A stretch of 64,000 nt of DNA from contig CACIWQ010000005.1 in NCBI GenBank assembly GCA_902590395.1, positions 1 through 64,000 of the forward strand, read 5' to 3'. Below are positions 4,742 to 41,289 of the stretch, piece after piece. A program made the position numbers and the translations under genes. Position 1 is the stretch's first letter, and every line of letters begins with the position of its first letter. A model generated the notes under the pieces. The model ran no database searches, was not told the origin of the DNA, and worked only from the letters and a program-made list of their open reading frames with translations. Source of the stretch: an uncultured Pelagibacteraceae bacterium. GTDB taxonomy: Bacteria; Pseudomonadota; Alphaproteobacteria; Pelagibacterales; Pelagibacteraceae.

Positions 4742-6536
4742 TTTTTCCTTTATCCGAAAATAGTTTTGTAAGTTGGTTGACCATTACATCTCCAAGCTCT
4801 TGAACATCAGCAATTTTTATTGCTTTTTTATAGTATCTTGTCACATCGTGACCTATTCCAATTGCCAAAACTTCGATCTTTGAATTTTCTTCAATCCATT
4901 TAACAGTTTGCTTAAGATGCTTTTCTAAATAATCTCCAGAGTTTACAGATAAAGTTGAGTCATCTACTGGCGCACCGTCTGAAATAACCATTAATATTTT
5001 TCTTTCTTCTTTCCTCTTGGCAATTCTCTTGAAAGCCCAAAGCAAAGCTTCACCATCTATATTTTCTTTTAAGAGCCCTTCTTTGAGCATCAAACCTAGA
5101 TTTTTTTTGGATTGTCTCCAAGGCATATCTGCTGACTTATAAATAATATGTCTTAAATCATTTAATCGACCAGGATTAGATGGTTTATTACTGAGATTCC
5201 ATTTTTCCCTGCTTTTTCCACCTTTCCAATTTTTTGTTGTGAATCCAAGTATCTCAACTTTAACAGAACATCTTTCCAAAGTTCTTGAGAGTATGTCGGC
5301 ACATATTGCTGCGACTGAGATTGGTCTACCTCTCATAGATCCGGAATTATCAATAAGAAGTGTAACAACTGTATCTTTAAATTCAGTATTTTTTTCTACT
5401 TTATAAGACAAAGAATGAAATGGATCAATTATAACTCTCGTGAGTTTTGCGGCGTCTAGAACACCTTCCTCTAAATCAAATTCCCAAGATCTATTTTGTT
5501 TGGCCAAAAGTTGTCTTTGAAGTTTATTCGCAAGTTTTGCTACAATGTTTTGTAAATTAAGTAGCTGTTGGTCTAAATTTTTACGAAGCCTAACAATCTC
5601 TTCTTCTTTTTCTAAATTTTCAGCTTCAGCTATTTCATCAAATTCGTTAGTAAATACCTTATATTTTCCTTTTAATAATTTGTTAATAGTTCGCTTTTGT
5701 AAATTAGGTTCACCTTCGGTATCCTTTGTGTCTTTTTGATTAGTATCATCATTTTCGTTAAGAGAATGCATTTCATCTTCCATAACACTAAATTCAGCAT
5801 CATTTACTTGGTTTTCACTATCATCCTTTGAATCATTTTTTTCACTTTGATTATCAGAACTAGAATCTTCATTAGAAGTTTCTCTTTCTTCTTCTTTTTC
5901 CTTTGCATCGGAGTCATCGAATTCAAGATTATCAATGAGTTCTGCAATGATTTGATTAAATTCACGTTGGTTATTAACACAATTATCTAACTCTCTTAAT
6001 TTTATTTTCAATTTTTTATCAAACAAATCTTGCCAATAACTCAAGACTCTTTTCGTAGTATCGTTTTGTTTTATTTTGAAAAAATGACTTCTTAAATACA
6101 ATTCAAAAGCGTCAGTTATAGGCACATCATTTTCAGTTTTTATTTCCTCAATTTTCTTATTTTTGAATTTATTTTCGTAGCACTGTATAATATTGTTTTT
6201 TATACCTTTTAATTTATTAGATCCTATTTTTTCATATCTAATTTTTTCAGCAATAGCATATAATGATTTAGCCATAGCTCCCTTAGGTTCATTTTCTAAG
6301 TAAATTTTTTCATTTGTATATTTTATCTTTAAAGCCTCAGAATCAGCAAAAGCTCTTAAATTTGTGAAATCTTGTAGGTTTTTTAGGTTAGCTATTTCTG
6401 GTAAATTTAAGGAGTCTTTTTTCGAATTTATATTATTTCCAAATTTAACATTAAGATCATATTTTTCTGAGATTACTTTTACAGCTGAAGATACAGCCGC
6501 TTTAAACCTTTCTTTTAAAAATTCTTTTTCGTCCAC
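4731..6536 (-). CDS. cobT: CobT-like cobaltochelatase subunit (VWA domain)
   Basis: Acidic central linker and C-terminal VWA domain with MIDAS-like [11 protein letters not shown]; adjacent to CobS-like AAA+ gene. Confidence 0.85.
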
Positions 6537-15768: not shown

Positions 15769-16907
15769 TACTTAAAATAATTTTCTAATATATTTAAATA
15801 TATATTAGTTAATTTTTTTAAGTCTGACAAAGGAACAGATTCATCAATTTTATGCATTGTTTTTCCAACCAAACCAAATTCCAAACATGGTGCAATCTTT
15901 CTGATAAATCTTGCATCAGAGGTGCCACCCGTAGTTGACAATTTAGGCTTAATTTTCGTAATTTTTTTAATAGTATTTTGAATCATAAAGGTAGTTTTAT
16001 TGGGTTTCGTTAAAAAAGCCTCTCCTGATACTTCATATCTTATATTAAATTTACACTTATTTTTTTTAGTCATAGATCTAAAGATATTGTTCAATTTTTT
16101 TTTTAGAGAACCAGAAGAGTGTTTATTATTATATCTAATATTAAACACAGCATTTGCTGACCCTGGAATTACGTTATCAGCGTGATTGTCTATATCAATT
16201 TTTGTTATTTCTAAATTAGAAGGTTGGAAGTTTTTTGTACCTTTATCGAGATTTATTTCTTTTATTTTTTTTAAAATTTTAATTATCGTATCTGCAGGAT
16301 TATTTGCTCTGTGTGGATAGGCTACATGGCCCTGCGTTCCAATAATAGTTAATCGTCCAGTAATACTTCCTCTCCTGCCAATTTTAATCATTTCTCCAAG
16401 TTTATTTGGATTAGTAGGTTCACCAACTATACAAAAATTTATTTTCTCTCTTTTTTTTTTTAAATATTCAACAATTCTTTTTGTTCCATTTACAGCCACT
16501 CCTTCTTCATCACCAGTAATTAATAAACTTATAGAGCCCTTAAATTTTTTATTTTTGTTTTTAAATTTGTTTACTGCAGCAACAAAACAAGCAATTGAAG
16601 CTTTCATATCGTTAGCTCCACGTCCAATTAATTTATTATTTTTAATCGCAGGTTTAAATGGATTTACACTCCAATCACTTTCATTACCTGGCGGTACAAC
16701 ATCTGTATGACCCGCATAACAAAAATTGGGTGAAGAACTTCCAAGCTTTGCATATAAATTTTTTATATTTTTAAAATTTATTATTTGACATTTAAAACCA
16801 AGAGATCTTAAATTTTTTGCCAATAGATTTATGGCGCCTGCATCCTTAGGAGTGATGCTAGGCCGACGAATCAATTCTTTTGCTAATTTTAATTCACTGA
16901 TTGGCAT
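15768..16907 (-). CDS. dapE: Succinyl-diaminopimelate desuccinylase
   Basis: RPSITPKDAGA, YAGHTDVVPPG, GRGANDMKASIACFV, GDEEG; adjacent to dapD. Confidence 0.95.
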   Translation of the reverse strand: MPISELKLAKELIRRPSITPKDAGAINLLAKNLRSLGFKCQIINFKNIKNLYAKLGSSSPNFCYAGHTDVVPPGNESDWSVNPFKPAIKNNKLIGRGANDMKASIACFVAAVNKFKNKNKKFKGSISLLITGDEEGVAVNGTKRIVEYLKKKREKINFCIVGEPTNPNKLGEMIKIGRRGSITGRLTIIGTQGHVAYPHRANNPADTIIKILKKIKEINLDKGTKNFQPSNLEITKIDIDNHADNVIPGSANAVFNIRYNNKHSSGSLKKKLNNIFRSMTKKNKCKFNIRYEVSGEAFLTKPNKTTFMIQNTIKKITKIKPKLSTTGGTSDARFIRKIAPCLEFGLVGKTMHKIDESVPLSDLKKLTNIYLNILENYFK

Positions 16908-18414: not shown

Positions 18415-19283
18415 TTTCTTATAAGTGTTCCCGCACCTTGATCTGAAAATAATTCAAATAAAATTGAATGGGGTTTTCTTCCATCAATAATCACAACACC
18501 TTTCACATTGCTATTTACGGCATTTATGCATGTTCTTATTTTTGGAATCATCCCACCGTGAATTGTTTGATTATAAATCAGTTTTTCTGCATCAGCTGAT
18601 TTTATTTCAGAAATTAATTTTTTATTATCATCATAAACTCCCTCAACATCCGTCATTAACAATAATCTCCTTGATTTTAAACTTATTGCTAGCGCTCCAG
18701 CAGCAGTATCAGCATTTATATTGTAAGCTTGATTTTTTTCATCAAGTCCCATTGGTGCTATAATTGGAATAAAATCTTTATTAATAAAATTTTTTATTAA
18801 TTTATCGTCTATTCTAGTTGGACTTCCAACATAACCTAGTTCTTTATTTTTTTGGCAAACATAAATTGTATTATTTTCTTTAACCGTCATAGATTTTGCC
18901 TTGCAGGATTTTTTTTCTAAAGCATCAACAATCTCTTTATTAAATTCAACCATCACATCTTCAACAATTTTAATCATTTTTTCATCTGTTACTCTTAGAC
19001 CCATAATAAACTTGCTTTTGATATTAGATTTATCCAATTTTTTTTTTATTCCTAATCCCCCTCCATGAACTATCAAAGGAGTTAAGCCTAATTTTTTTAA
19101 CGTGGCTATATCTTCAATAAAATTATTAAATAAAGCAGGATCTAAAAGTACTCGACCACCGCACTTTATAACTATTTTTTCTTTTGAATATTTTTTTATG
19201 TATTTCTCAACTTCCTGAGTTGAAGGCCCATTTTTGGGCCAGAACTTTTTAATTTTATTATCTAAATTTTCAGCAGTTAACAT
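18411..19283 (-). CDS. argB: Acetylglutamate kinase
   Basis: VIKCGGRVLLDPALFNNFIEDIATLKKLGLTPLIVHGGG, NINADTAAGALAISLKSRRLLLMTDVEGV. Confidence 0.95.
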   Translation of the reverse strand: MLTAENLDNKIKKFWPKNGPSTQEVEKYIKKYSKEKIVIKCGGRVLLDPALFNNFIEDIATLKKLGLTPLIVHGGGLGIKKKLDKSNIKSKFIMGLRVTDEKMIKIVEDVMVEFNKEIVDALEKKSCKAKSMTVKENNTIYVCQKNKELGYVGSPTRIDDKLIKNFINKDFIPIIAPMGLDEKNQAYNINADTAAGALAISLKSRRLLLMTDVEGVYDDNKKLISEIKSADAEKLIYNQTIHGGMIPKIRTCINAVNSNVKGVVIIDGRKPHSILFELFSDQGAGTLIRK

Positions 19284-32715: not shown

Positions 32716-32792
32716 GCAGCAGTAGCTCAGTTGGTTAGAGCACTAGTTTGTGGAACTAGGGGTCGGTGGTTCGAATCCACCCTGCTGTACCA
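32716..32792 (+). tRNA. tRNA-His (anticodon GTG), CCA encoded; A73, no encoded G-1
   Basis: GCAGCAGTAGCTCAGTTGGTTAGAGCACTAGTTTGTGGAACTAGGGGTCGGTGGTTCGAATCCACCCTGCTGTACCA; anticodon loop TTGTGGA. Confidence 0.95.
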
Positions 32793-35158: not shown

Positions 35159-35836
35159 ATGAAAAATTTAATAACAATAGGCTTACCAAGCAAAGGAAGA
35201 TTAAAAGAAGATTCAATAATTTTTTTTGAAAAAAAAAATCTTAAACCAACCACCAGTGGAGGTGTAAGAAATTATTTTGCGCAAATAGAGAACTTACCTA
35301 ATTCAAAAATTATTTATTTGCATGCTAAAGAGATAATCCAAAGACTTGGTGACGGAACAATTGACATAGGAATATCTGGTTTGGATCTATTACAGGAATC
35401 GTCTATCAACCTTCAGAAAAAAATTGAAATTAAAAAAAAACTAGACTTCGGTGTAGCCGATGTAGTGGTTGCTATACCTAATGATTGGATAGATGTTCAA
35501 ACGTTAGCAGACTTAGAAGAAGTTTCTTTTGATTTTAGGGATAATAAGAATACCAGGTTAAGAGTTGCAACAAAGTATCCAAATTTAACTAATAATTTTC
35601 TAGTCTCAAAAGGAATTACGCAATACAAACTTGTACCGAGTCTTGGGGCAACAGAAACCTATCCATTCATAGGATCATCTGAAATTATTACAGATATAAC
35701 TTCTACAGGAAAAACTTTAAAAGATAATAATCTTAGAGTTCTTAAAGATGGGTGTATTTTAAGTTCCCAAGCTTGTTTATTGATTTCAAAAAAAAAGGCC
35801 GCAATTTTGCGACCTTTTTTAAATTCATTAATTTGA
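35159..35836 (+). CDS. hisG: ATP phosphoribosyltransferase (short form)
   Basis: ITIGLPSKGRLKEDSI, RLGDGTIDIGISGLDLLQE, LGATETYPFIGSSEIITDITSTGKTLKDNNLRVL. Confidence 0.94.
   Translation: MKNLITIGLPSKGRLKEDSIIFFEKKNLKPTTSGGVRNYFAQIENLPNSKIIYLHAKEIIQRLGDGTIDIGISGLDLLQESSINLQKKIEIKKKLDFGVADVVVAIPNDWIDVQTLADLEEVSFDFRDNKNTRLRVATKYPNLTNNFLVSKGITQYKLVPSLGATETYPFIGSSEIITDITSTGKTLKDNNLRVLKDGCILSSQACLLISKKKAAILRPFLNSLI
35797..35820 (+). terminator. Rho-independent terminator overlapping the hisG 3' coding end
   Basis: AAAAAGGCCGCAATTTTGCGACCTTTTTT; GC stem followed by T6, located before the hisG stop at 35834-35836. Confidence 0.75.
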
Positions 35837-35965
35837 TTGGTTTACATTCACACACATATTACGCCAATACTCACTTATTTAAGAACTTCATTGAAAAGTT
35901 CATTGAGAAAACCGTTCAATTAGAAAGCAATTCAAAAGGTGACTTCATTGAGGGGTGGGGTTAAA

Positions 35966-36559
35966 ATGGGTTTGATGAAAAATTTGATAATAATTTTAAT
36001 ATTTAGTTTTATTTTCTCCAATAAGTCTTTTGCAAATGATATCAAACTTTTTTATATAGAAGAAATGAGAATAGGGGAAAGTGCCCTGTTGTACTTTAGC
36101 AAAGAAGAGATTGAAAATGGAAGACAACCACAACAGTATCCCGGTTCTGATAGATATATAATATCTAATATTTCTCAACATAAGAATTTTAAAAAATTTG
36201 CACAAATACAAATTAATTATCTAAAGAATGATGATAATTATAAAATGGGTGGGATAATAGGTAGTGCTCCTTATGATGATATTAAGGAGTGCTTAAAAGA
36301 TAAAGATATTACTGAGAATAAGATGGATAAAGCATTAAAAGATCCAGTTAAGGAAAGTGCAAAACAAGACAAACATTATGACCCTACTGGTAATAGTAAA
36401 ACTTATATAACTCAATATTTTTTAGAGAATGGATTTGCTCAAATTACTTGTGATGATTGGAGTGAAAAATTAACTAAAGAACAAAATTTACAAGATGTAT
36501 TATCGGTAAATCTTATAGGAGAAGATTTTGGAAATTTTTTAAAAACTGAAGCATATTAA
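35966..36559 (+). CDS. Hypothetical secreted protein (cassette 1)
   Basis: Signal peptide MKNLIIILIFSFIFSNKSFAND; ATG at 35966; no recognised family. Confidence 0.7.
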   Translation: MGLMKNLIIILIFSFIFSNKSFANDIKLFYIEEMRIGESALLYFSKEEIENGRQPQQYPGSDRYIISNISQHKNFKKFAQIQINYLKNDDNYKMGGIIGSAPYDDIKECLKDKDITENKMDKALKDPVKESAKQDKHYDPTGNSKTYITQYFLENGFAQITCDDWSEKLTKEQNLQDVLSVNLIGEDFGNFLKTEAY

Positions 36560-36567
36560 CTAAAACA

Positions 36568-37023
36568 ATGAAAAAACTATCTCTTTACATCTTTTTGGTT
36601 TTGATGTTTTGTAATTTTTCAAATGCAGAGACTTACGATGAATTAGAAATTAGAGCAGTTAAAAAATTACAAAATGAGTATCTATCCTGTTATGCATTTT
36701 ATAGCATTAGCGAAAGTGCTTTCAAAGACCCTGAAGATGAAAGTTTAAAATACATTATAGAACAAAAAGACTCAGTTTTACAAAGTGCTATGGATATAGA
36801 ATTTTCTTTATTAGCACTTATGGGTGAAGAATTGCTTGATGATGAGAAGTTATTTAAAGATAAAATTGAACCAAAACTTGAAGAAGTATTTAAGCAATTA
36901 TGGGAACAATGGGAAAATGATTCTGAAAAAAGTTTAGTAAGTGAACGTAATAAATTATGCCAAGAAATTCTGAATAGTCCAAGACCTAGAATAGAATATT
37001 GGATTAAAAAACTACAGGAATAA
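36568..37023 (+). CDS. Hypothetical secreted protein (cassette 1)
   Basis: Signal peptide MKKLSLYIFLVLMFCNFSNAET; 151 aa. Confidence 0.7.
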   Translation: MKKLSLYIFLVLMFCNFSNAETYDELEIRAVKKLQNEYLSCYAFYSISESAFKDPEDESLKYIIEQKDSVLQSAMDIEFSLLALMGEELLDDEKLFKDKIEPKLEEVFKQLWEQWENDSEKSLVSERNKLCQEILNSPRPRIEYWIKKLQE

Positions 37024-37026
37024 AAA

Positions 37027-37112
37027 AACCCCCAAAACTTTCGTTCCGAGGGTTCTAATTTTGTTTAGTGTATGTATTTAGAGTGTTCTGGTTGGGGAAT
37101 CGTATTACATTC
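37027..37112. repeat. groEL-3'-end/terminator repeat, copy 1
   Basis: AACCCCCAAAACTTTCGTTCCGAGGGTT...TTTAGAGTGTTCTGGTTGGGGAATCGTATTACATTC; near-identical to copy at 38568-38654 and related to the real groEL 3' flank 39544-39629. Confidence 0.85.
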
Positions 37113-37217
37113 GCATTCATTTGATACCAATACTCACTAATTTAACTTCTTCACTGCAAACTTCACTGCAGAATCAGACGAAACGAGAAGGGTACGAGAA
37201 AGGTGACCTCGTACGCC

Positions 37218-37356
37218 ACAAAGGCATTAATACCCATGTACAAAAACTTCATATGCTACAAAGGCATTAATACCCATGTACAAAAACTTCATATGCTACA
37301 AAGGCATTAATACCCATGTACAAAAACTTCATATGCTACAAAGGCATTAATACCCA
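37218..37356. repeat. Perfect 40-bp tandem repeat (3 full + 1 partial copy)
   Basis: ACAAAGGCATTAATACCCATGTACAAAAACTTCATATGCT x3 at 37218, 37258, 37298, plus 19 nt from 37338. Confidence 0.97.
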
Positions 37357-37405
37357 CCTATTTTTTACTGTCCAAATTTTCAGTGAAATAGATTAAAATT
37401 TGGTG

Positions 37406-38566
37406 ATGAAGAAGAAGGTTAAAATTGTAATTGGTGGAACTTTCTATGGGGATTACTTTGGTGAGGTTGACGAAAGAAAAGGTTATTACTTCGGCAAACC
37501 AAAAGGACAAGGAACACTTAAAACTAAAGAGGGTACATATGTTGGTGAAGTCCAAGTAGGTGGACTACCCTGCGGGAAAGGAACATTTAATTACTTAGAT
37601 GGATCGAAATATACTGGAGATTTTAAAAGTGGAGTTTGGTCAGGCAAAGGAAATTTAACATTTGATGAAGGAGGTTATGTTGGTGAATTTAAAAAAGGGA
37701 AACCCCACGGATTTGGAAAAGACTATGATGCTAATGGCAAAGTTATATATGAAGGTCAATACGAAAAAGGTTATTGGCATGGCAAGGGAACTTTTTTATC
37801 TGACGGGGGAGGAAAATTTGTTGGTGAATTTAAAAAAGATAAATTTTATGAAGGTGAATTAACTAAAAATACAGGTGAAAAACATATTTATAAAAAAGGT
37901 AAAGTGATAAAAAATGATAAAGTAAAAAGTAAAGCAATGAAGAAAACTTGGATATCAGACGATAAAAGTCAAAAGTATGTTGGTGAGTTTAAAGGAGAAA
38001 AAAAACACGGACAGGGCACTTATACTTGGATAGGTAAGGGAGAAATTTCTGGAATATTCGAAGAAGATCAATTCCCCAATTATGGAACTTTTATAGATTT
38101 TGAGGATCATAAGTATGTAGGTGAAATGAAAGAACGGAATGGTAAATATAATGGAAAGGGAACTTTTGTTCATTTTAAAGAAAAATATAAATATGAAGGT
38201 GAATTTAAAGATAGTCAAAGGCACGGATATGGAACTTTTGTACAAGAAGATGGTTCAACATTTAAAGGTAATTGGAAAAACGGTTTAAAACACGGGAAAG
38301 GAACACTTGTTAATGCAGTGTTCTTTCGAAGCGGTGAAGAAAAAGGAGAAGAGTTTGTAATAGATGGTGGTCCGCAAACTGGAGAATATATAGAGGATCA
38401 TCCACATGGAATATTTAATTGGGAAATGGATAGTGGAAGAAAATATGTTGGAGAAATAAAAGGTGGTTTTTTTCATGGTAAAGGAACTTTGACACATCCT
38501 GATGGAAAAGTTGAAAAAGGAATTTGGGAAAACGGAAAACTAATCAAGAATGAAGGGACCAATTAA
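37406..38566 (+). CDS. MORN-repeat protein (cassette 2)
   Basis: Repeated YVGEFKxGKxHGxGTF motifs (GTYVGEVQVGGLPCGKGTF, YTGDFKSGVWSGKGNL, YEGQYEKGYWHGKGTF, FKGNWKNGLKHGKGTL, YVGEIKGGFFHGKGTL). Confidence 0.92.
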   Translation: MKKKVKIVIGGTFYGDYFGEVDERKGYYFGKPKGQGTLKTKEGTYVGEVQVGGLPCGKGTFNYLDGSKYTGDFKSGVWSGKGNLTFDEGGYVGEFKKGKPHGFGKDYDANGKVIYEGQYEKGYWHGKGTFLSDGGGKFVGEFKKDKFYEGELTKNTGEKHIYKKGKVIKNDKVKSKAMKKTWISDDKSQKYVGEFKGEKKHGQGTYTWIGKGEISGIFEEDQFPNYGTFIDFEDHKYVGEMKERNGKYNGKGTFVHFKEKYKYEGEFKDSQRHGYGTFVQEDGSTFKGNWKNGLKHGKGTLVNAVFFRSGEEKGEEFVIDGGPQTGEYIEDHPHGIFNWEMDSGRKYVGEIKGGFFHGKGTLTHPDGKVEKGIWENGKLIKNEGTN

Positions 38567-38567
38567 A

Positions 38568-38654
38568 AAACCCCCAAAACTTTCGTTCCGAGGGTTCTAA
38601 TTTTGTTTAATTTCTGTTTTTAGAGTGTTCTGGTCGGGGAATCGTATTACATTC
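38568..38654. repeat. groEL-3'-end/terminator repeat, copy 2
   Basis: AAAACCCCCAAAACTTTCGTTCCGAGGGTTCTAATTTTGTTTAATTTCTGTTTTTAGAGTGTTCTGGTCGGGGAATCGTATTACATTC. Confidence 0.85.
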
Positions 38655-38788
38655 TCATACTGGTTTCTAATAATACTTGATTTACTTAACATTTTGAAAA
38701 TTCCTTCATCACTTTTCATCACTATTTAAAGCAATCCCAAAGCAATTCAAAAGATGAATTTGTTTTAGGGGTGGGTTAGAATTGGGTG

Positions 38789-39529
38789 ATGAAAATGGAA
38801 AACACAATTGGATTAAGTTTTAATAATTTAGAGCGAACAAACTATTGTCATAAGTCTGATAATGATATGGGGTTAAAAGAAATTTTACCCAGGAGAGGAC
38901 CTAATATCAGTGTAGATGATAGATTTAGAGATATTAAGTTTTCTTTAATTGAAATGTATGGAAGAGGCATCTCATTATCCACAAAACTTAAGCAGGGTAA
39001 ATTATTTAAAAATAGAAAACAATCGCTCAATGGGTTCTTATCCAAAAATGAAAAATCTAGATATACTTTAAAATCAAAAGAAGGTGATTTTATAAATTGC
39101 TGGGAGTTAGTTATTTGGTCAAAGGATGAAATAAAAAAACAAATAAAAACCAATTATGGTGACGATGGTAGTGTAACTGTATACTATTTTTCAGAAGAAC
39201 CTATGGAAGAAATTTTAACAAAAGACAATCTTCCTTCATTTTCCTGTTCAACTTCAAAAATTGCAATTGATATATTAGTGGATAAGAAAGATTTTAATGA
39301 AATAAAGAAGGCAATTTTAAAAGGTAGAAATGAAACAAAACAAAAAGAATATTTTTTTGGAAATTTAACTAATGTTGAATCATTTGATATTAGCAAAATT
39401 GAATTTAAAATAGATATTAAAAAACCAGGAGCGGTTTATGCCAATGTAGGTAAAATTGCTAGAATTTTCGCTATTAAAGATTTTAAATTTATTAAGGAAC
39501 TTAAGTACAAAAAAGGAAAAAAATCTTAG
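38789..39529 (+). CDS. Hypothetical protein (cassette 3)
   Basis: 246-aa ORF, ATG 38789; no recognised family. Confidence 0.7.
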   Translation: MKMENTIGLSFNNLERTNYCHKSDNDMGLKEILPRRGPNISVDDRFRDIKFSLIEMYGRGISLSTKLKQGKLFKNRKQSLNGFLSKNEKSRYTLKSKEGDFINCWELVIWSKDEIKKQIKTNYGDDGSVTVYYFSEEPMEEILTKDNLPSFSCSTSKIAIDILVDKKDFNEIKKAILKGRNETKQKEYFFGNLTNVESFDISKIEFKIDIKKPGAVYANVGKIARIFAIKDFKFIKELKYKKGKKS

Positions 39530-39543
39530 CAGGAAATAAAAAA

Positions 39544-41289
<1,746 letters not shown>

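Follow-up and report, generated by a model that had tools for sequence, protein, structure and literature searches.

In SAR11 bacteria, the 3′ end of groEL probably functions as an attachment site for small, site-specifically inserted cassettes of one to a few genes, a reading to which a probability of about 0.77 is assigned. The window, that is, the whole stretch of 64,000 nucleotides analysed, comes from a SAR11 (Pelagibacteraceae) contig of a draft genome that is 73% complete, and it carries a probable integron-like slot at groEL for swapping defence and other genes among strains. Few cells on Earth are as abundant as those of SAR11, and few mobile elements are known from their very small genomes. 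A slot that is fixed, costs little and accepts single genes as well as whole restriction-modification systems would help to explain the flexible gene pool of such streamlined genomes and their variation in phage defence; with the conserved cassette ends, the pool of cassette genes could be listed directly from metagenomes, and the search for the missing recombinase is now a well-defined problem. A search of the open-access literature, with subscription papers and preprints outside its scope, found no description of groEL cassette arrays.

Three units between hisG and groEL

Four ORFs lie between the convergent hisG and groEL genes of the window, and the interval is organized as follows (coordinates in the window, strand, feature).

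35159-35836, plus: hisG, the left flank, convergent with groEL; the two stops are ~10 bp apart in empty-site relatives
35842-35849, no strand: core TTACATTC on the hisG side, the left attachment core and start of unit A
35842-37104, plus: cassette unit A, 1263 bp, with a class II left end, two ORFs and a type 1 terminator right end
35842-35965, plus: left end (LE) of unit A, which contains direct repeats of TTCATTG(A)
35966-36559, plus: ORF A1, a predicted exported protein, with 25% identity to a cassette-encoded protein of another array (L104); no Pfam family found
36568-37023, plus: ORF A2, a putative exported protein with the N-terminus MKKLSLYIFLVLMF; no Pfam family found
37023-37104, minus: right end (RE) of unit A, a terminator in the groEL direction plus the AGAACACTC arm; copy 1 of the original prediction
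37105-37112, no strand: core TTACATTC at the A/B junction
37105-38646, plus: cassette unit B, 1542 bp, with a class II left end, a MORN-repeat gene and a type 1 right end
37406-38566, plus: ORF B, a MORN-repeat protein (E 8.7e-28)
38563-38646, minus: right end of unit B, terminator arm; copy 2 of the original prediction
38647-38654, no strand: core TTACATTC at the B/C junction
38647-39621, plus: cassette unit C, 975 bp, with a class I left end, one ORF and a type 1 right end
38647-38751, plus: class I left end of unit C, with CTTCATCAC repeats
38789-39529, plus: ORF C, with no recognisable family
39537-39621, minus: right end of unit C, now the groEL-proximal terminator
39622-39629, minus: core, GAATGTAA on the minus strand, at the stop codon of groEL; the restored attachment site
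39622-41274, minus: groEL, the target gene, with an intact C-terminus

The original prediction held that two remnants of the groEL stop codon and terminator lie displaced from the gene, with homology extending through the last groEL codons, and that serial insertion at a protein-gene 3′ end had left them there. Pairwise alignment confirmed three similar copies of the arm (37019-37116, 38561-38658 and 39536-39633), which are alignable over 98 bp, the second and third being 93% and 79% identical to the first. The last codons of groEL on the minus strand match ATG.GAATGTAATAC.ATTCC, as quoted, and this match is followed by AGAACACTC, TTAGAACCC and GGGGGTTTTTT. In a search of the whole own genome with the arm, the other two copies were recovered at E = 8.6e-36 and 4.2e-21, the next best match had a value of 0.007, and no copies beyond the three were found; chance similarity of the arm copies is excluded.

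The proposed homology with groEL stood only in part: a short stretch of the arm, ~15 nt, does match groEL coding DNA, but the only part common to the host and all units across relatives is the 8-bp TTACATTC, the reverse complement of GAATGTAA, which comprises the last groEL codons and the stop. This groEL-like part reads as a recombination core, not as a fragment of groEL from a different strain. The shared arm proved to be the cassettes' own right end rather than a displaced piece of groEL, and the arm copy adjacent to groEL in the window belongs to cassette C. Moreover, there are three units and not two remnants: a core and a left end belonging to unit A follow directly on hisG, at 35842. 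Two further repeats, one of 64 bp after each core and one of 54 bp ahead of the ORFs (families D7 and D8), are parts of the unit left ends.

Over 206 aa, the protein of ORF B has 72% identity to the product of a cassette in another SAR11 array (L161). A tandem repeat of a 40-bp unit containing GCTACAAAGGCATTAATACCCATGTACAAAAACTTCATAT is located ahead of the MORN gene, at 37206-37356, and a leader related to this repeat is found near 11982 of L161, ahead of a different gene.

Empty and occupied sites

The groEL 3′ flanks of 19 genus-level and 40 family-level relatives were picked blind to occupancy; one of the 19 genus relatives ends short of the groEL stop, and the resulting 59 flanks include that of the window. 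The site was empty in 36 of these flanks and occupied in 23. In about 30 relatives with empty sites, from genera in which hisG is the flank, 9-13 bp separate the stops of hisG and groEL, and in most of the relatives sampled the two genes have a common hairpin terminator, GGCCGCAA..TTGCGGCC, which differs from the arm that had been taken for groEL's own terminator. Occupied sites with both flanks on the contig contain 0.8-5.2 kb inserted at that very point. In-silico deletion of 35842-39621 from the window recreates an empty site, and the joined sequence of 200 bp has 165-179 identities, with 0-2 gaps, to 11 empty-site relatives; therefore, the insertion has exact boundaries and brought with it the terminator that lies beside groEL today. 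Additionally, insertions of a single unit with the core at both sides were observed at three loci (L018, L024 and L109), and content varies among close relatives, empty sites included.

It is conceivable that this interval is a replacement island, swapped wholesale by homologous recombination in the conserved flanks, with the repeated ends acting as shared homology and no enzyme active today. SAR11 recombines often, and flank-driven exchange was proposed for HVR2 in passages of an earlier study (PMC2217521); the cassette ends are long and similar enough for recombination, and the genomes with arrays have no dedicated recombinase. However, such exchange does not explain how units came to have matched end repeats, a single orientation and a restored 8-bp core, nor does it account for single units that sit in otherwise empty sites and meet the same 8 bp with ends of different types, or for the same cassette at different array positions, and we consider it unlikely as the source of the units. 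Site-specific insertion is the preferred explanation, and homologous exchange probably also spreads existing arrays.

Several loci depart from the regular arrangement. Two occupied sites (L091 and L112) have no exact core, and the hisG-side ends are unrecognisable in several arrays (L021, L089, L110 and L116). In L116, ~4 kb on the hisG side carry zinc ABC transporter-like genes and a Fur/Zur-like regulator without cassette ends; thus, other DNA also settles in the hisG-groEL interval. In L087, a typA/bipA gene lies between the hisG end at 16553 and the groEL stop at 18526, and its product has a groEL-like C-terminal tail with the core at its stop codon, whereas the TypA of L104 has no such tail; the arrangement looks like a fusion of typA to the groEL 3′ end.

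Unit design and locus specificity

A pattern derived from the arm matched 27 stretches in Pelagibacteraceae, many of them in single-cell genomes and nearly all at groEL; since single-cell genomes also show the arrays, binning error is not their cause. Junctions were then collected with profile models of both ends, which gave 129 records, from which duplicate loci were removed. All of the testable junctions (104/104) shared one orientation and were situated on the groEL 3′ side, at most 10.8 kb from the gene. Serial insertion at a protein-gene 3′ end, as put forward in the original prediction, is thus strongly supported by precise empty sites, one core, one orientation and linkage to groEL in many genomes.

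The shared arm holds an intrinsic terminator, so a dispersed intergenic terminator repeat that merely chances to lie near groEL had to be considered. Only three copies were found in the own genome, nearly all significant composite-end matches in 43 genomes fall within 13 kb of groEL (the few others being weak and short), and the conserved left ends are not terminators. In favor of a dispersed repeat, one core-less copy occurs elsewhere in one genome (L168). This reading is already refuted by the locus specificity, the matches having been found nearly all at groEL and not at many other loci, and its residual probability is very small. The copy in L168, at ~4938-5605 and far from groEL, consists of a cassette-like secreted protein gene and a type 1 right-end terminator without TTACATTC, located between RNase H-like and peroxiredoxin-like genes, and is possibly an off-site copy.

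Each unit is composed, in order, of the core TTACATTC, a left end of ~105 bp, the cargo and a right end with a terminator, followed by the next core. The delimited units (n = 50) range from 164 bp to 7.4 kb with a median of 1.27 kb, the smallest (164 bp, in L140) being two ends joined with nothing else, and 70 of 90 cargo ORFs are directed from the left end to the right end. The repeat sequences of the cassette ends, which include TTCATCAC and TTCATTGC, are far more common there than in the window at large. In the left ends, CTTCATCAC (class I) or TTCATTGC/A (class II) is repeated ~45-75 bp inside the core, at offsets of ~45, 57 and 68; many right ends have the same repeat as the left end, ~85-96 bp from the next core (offsets -96 and -85). 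At either end, successive repeats are spaced by about one helical turn. Of the 20 units in which both ends could be scored, 19 were concordant for repeat class (permutation p 0.016), a set with only two class II-class II units. Type 1 right ends are without arm repeats. The right end supplies groEL with a terminator in the groEL direction.

Such a layout would suit the attachment site of a tyrosine integrase, with an arm on either side. Like a lambda-type attP, it has a short core that is identical in host and element, and the helically phased repeats around it are putative arm-type sites; unlike attP, the groEL cassettes carry no integrase, and their arm sites are predicted from sequence. If the repeats were operators, a common motif on either side of the cargo would not be expected. 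An IS200/IS605-like element, inserting after TTAC, was rejected: it is at odds with the shared core, which continues through ATTC, and no transposase-like protein was seen among the annotated cargo.

The arrays resemble integrons and CALINs in their short cassettes with one orientation and a recombination site at the downstream end, none with its own recombinase. A true integron cassette array with attC sites, or a CALIN-like remnant, would also be in keeping with the restriction-modification and unknown cargo and with the lack of an adjacent integrase. However, the integron 7-mer core (GTTRRRY or RYYYAAC) was near none of 108 junctions, the target is groEL, no intI is present, and passages of the SAR11 hypervariable-region study report that no attC sites were found at the variable regions (PMC2217521); an integron origin is extremely improbable, more so than any other alternative considered here. 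Moreover, unlike integrons and CALINs, the groEL cassettes have a stop-codon target, two conserved ends and a built-in terminator. In the same passages, groEL is not mentioned as a variable site (PMC2217521).

The additive flexible genomic island fGI-2 of Ca. Methylopumilus (Methylophilaceae), situated at tRNA-Lys with direct repeats of its last ~20 bases (PMC10872708), is similar in its growth by repeated insertion at one site with target-end direct repeats, both of which were observed at groEL, and in its small to large variable gene sets of mostly unknown genes (PMC10872708). It differs in its tRNA target and in repeats reported without unit anatomy, as opposed to the protein gene, two conserved ends and several genera of the present case. 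The tycheposons of Prochlorococcus, also discussed in PMC10872708, are likewise site-specifically inserted cargo elements of streamlined marine bacteria, but they use tRNA sites, encode their own tyrosine recombinase and measure 4-200 kb, whereas the groEL cassettes encode none, measure 0.16-7.4 kb and occupy a protein-gene site, the nearest tRNA in the window ending at 32792. In PAISt of Streptomyces turgidiscabies, an 8-bp site likewise lies at a protein-gene 3′ end (bacA) and excision is modular, but PAISt is a very large integrative conjugative element with a palindromic site in an unrelated host (PMC4057263).

Proposed reaction, cargo and exchange between genera

According to the proposed mechanism, cassettes would insert by site-specific recombination within TTACATTC. 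GroEL would be unchanged by insertion because the core overlaps its stop codon. Insertion would give groEL a new terminator and restore the core, so that further cassettes could add and arrays grow. The right-end terminator, being directed as groEL requires, would make the insertion harmless. The substrates are probably circular cassettes. The recombinase would act in trans; most likely it is an arm-binding tyrosine integrase, supplied by a helper that has yet to be sampled.

An integrase HMM applied to all loci found no tyrosine recombinase in the arrays and recovered the positive controls, and no serine recombinase was found in the 23 array-bearing genomes. These genomes have at most one tyrosine recombinase each, usually a Xer/Cre-like protein of 300-325 aa. 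SAR11 genomes in general mostly contain one such enzyme, as at 46773-47687 of contig C6 in the own genome (L129:8773-9687) and in L130-L138. Viral contigs scanned with the end and junction patterns gave no match, nor did the phage and plasmid collections; therefore, no helper or carrier was found. In Rfam, no family reached the gathering score.

Mobile elements that exploit Xer are known, and the resident Xer-like tyrosine recombinase might perform the reaction itself, the cassettes then being Xer-exploiting elements; this is a sub-case of site-specific insertion. In most array-bearing genomes no other recombinase was found, and the protein closely resembles XerD/Cre. However, it has a palindrome of its own, TTCCGATAA-TTAATGG-TTATCGGAA, which is perfect and lies just before the recombinase start codon in most genus members; this likely dif is unlike TTACATTC and its flanks, and the palindrome together with a lone recombinase suggests a single-recombinase dif or dimer-resolution system. 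As a candidate enzyme the conserved recombinase is disfavoured, since its own palindrome points to dimer resolution. The gene is present in empty-site genomes as well. Xer-exploiting elements (IMEX) insert at the chromosomal dif, and the cassettes do not, the likely dif adjoining the recombinase gene. The resident enzyme is an improbable agent, somewhat more so than wholesale replacement of the interval. A trans-acting integrase from a helper remains the preferred agent. The DNA past the 3′ end of the recombinase gene is hypervariable, with many glycosyltransferases.

The cargo comprises type I and type II restriction-modification systems, orphan methyltransferases, a helicase-nuclease, a PD-(D/E)XK nuclease, MORN proteins, a beta-lactamase-fold protein, DUFs and many short proteins with the N-terminal MKKLSLYIFLVLMF. 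Cassettes are shared across genera. Left ends with 95-97% identity to that of unit C occur at 12 loci, which belong to other SAR11 genera or to unassigned genomes and whose groEL 3′ DNA is only 76-79% identical to that of the window; the figure is 91% at one locus of a further genus. Similarly, the helicase-nuclease gene (1120 aa) is 93.1% identical over 3,360 bp between arrays of different genera, as against 79.0% for the groEL 3′ DNA of these two arrays; it adjoins groEL in one of them and is the leftmost delimited unit in the other. A further proposal, which we hold tentatively and at slightly less than even weight, is that the arrays represent a hitherto undescribed cassette-capture system of SAR11, with a platform at an essential protein gene, passive two-ended cassettes and its own trans-acting recombinase, which would be integron-like yet unrelated and would spread restriction-modification and other genes across genera.

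At 36568 of the window and in L021, L029, L063, L104, L109, L110 and L162, many unrelated cassette proteins begin with near-identical signal peptides (MKKLSLYIFLVLMF), as if a promoter and an export signal in the left end served a range of mature proteins. Type I restriction-modification cassettes that occupy the same position (L104, L148, L163, L164 and L165) have common flanking parts and a strongly divergent specificity subunit, and in L164 and L165 the same first gene of 110 aa is followed by an unrelated, inverted type I system.
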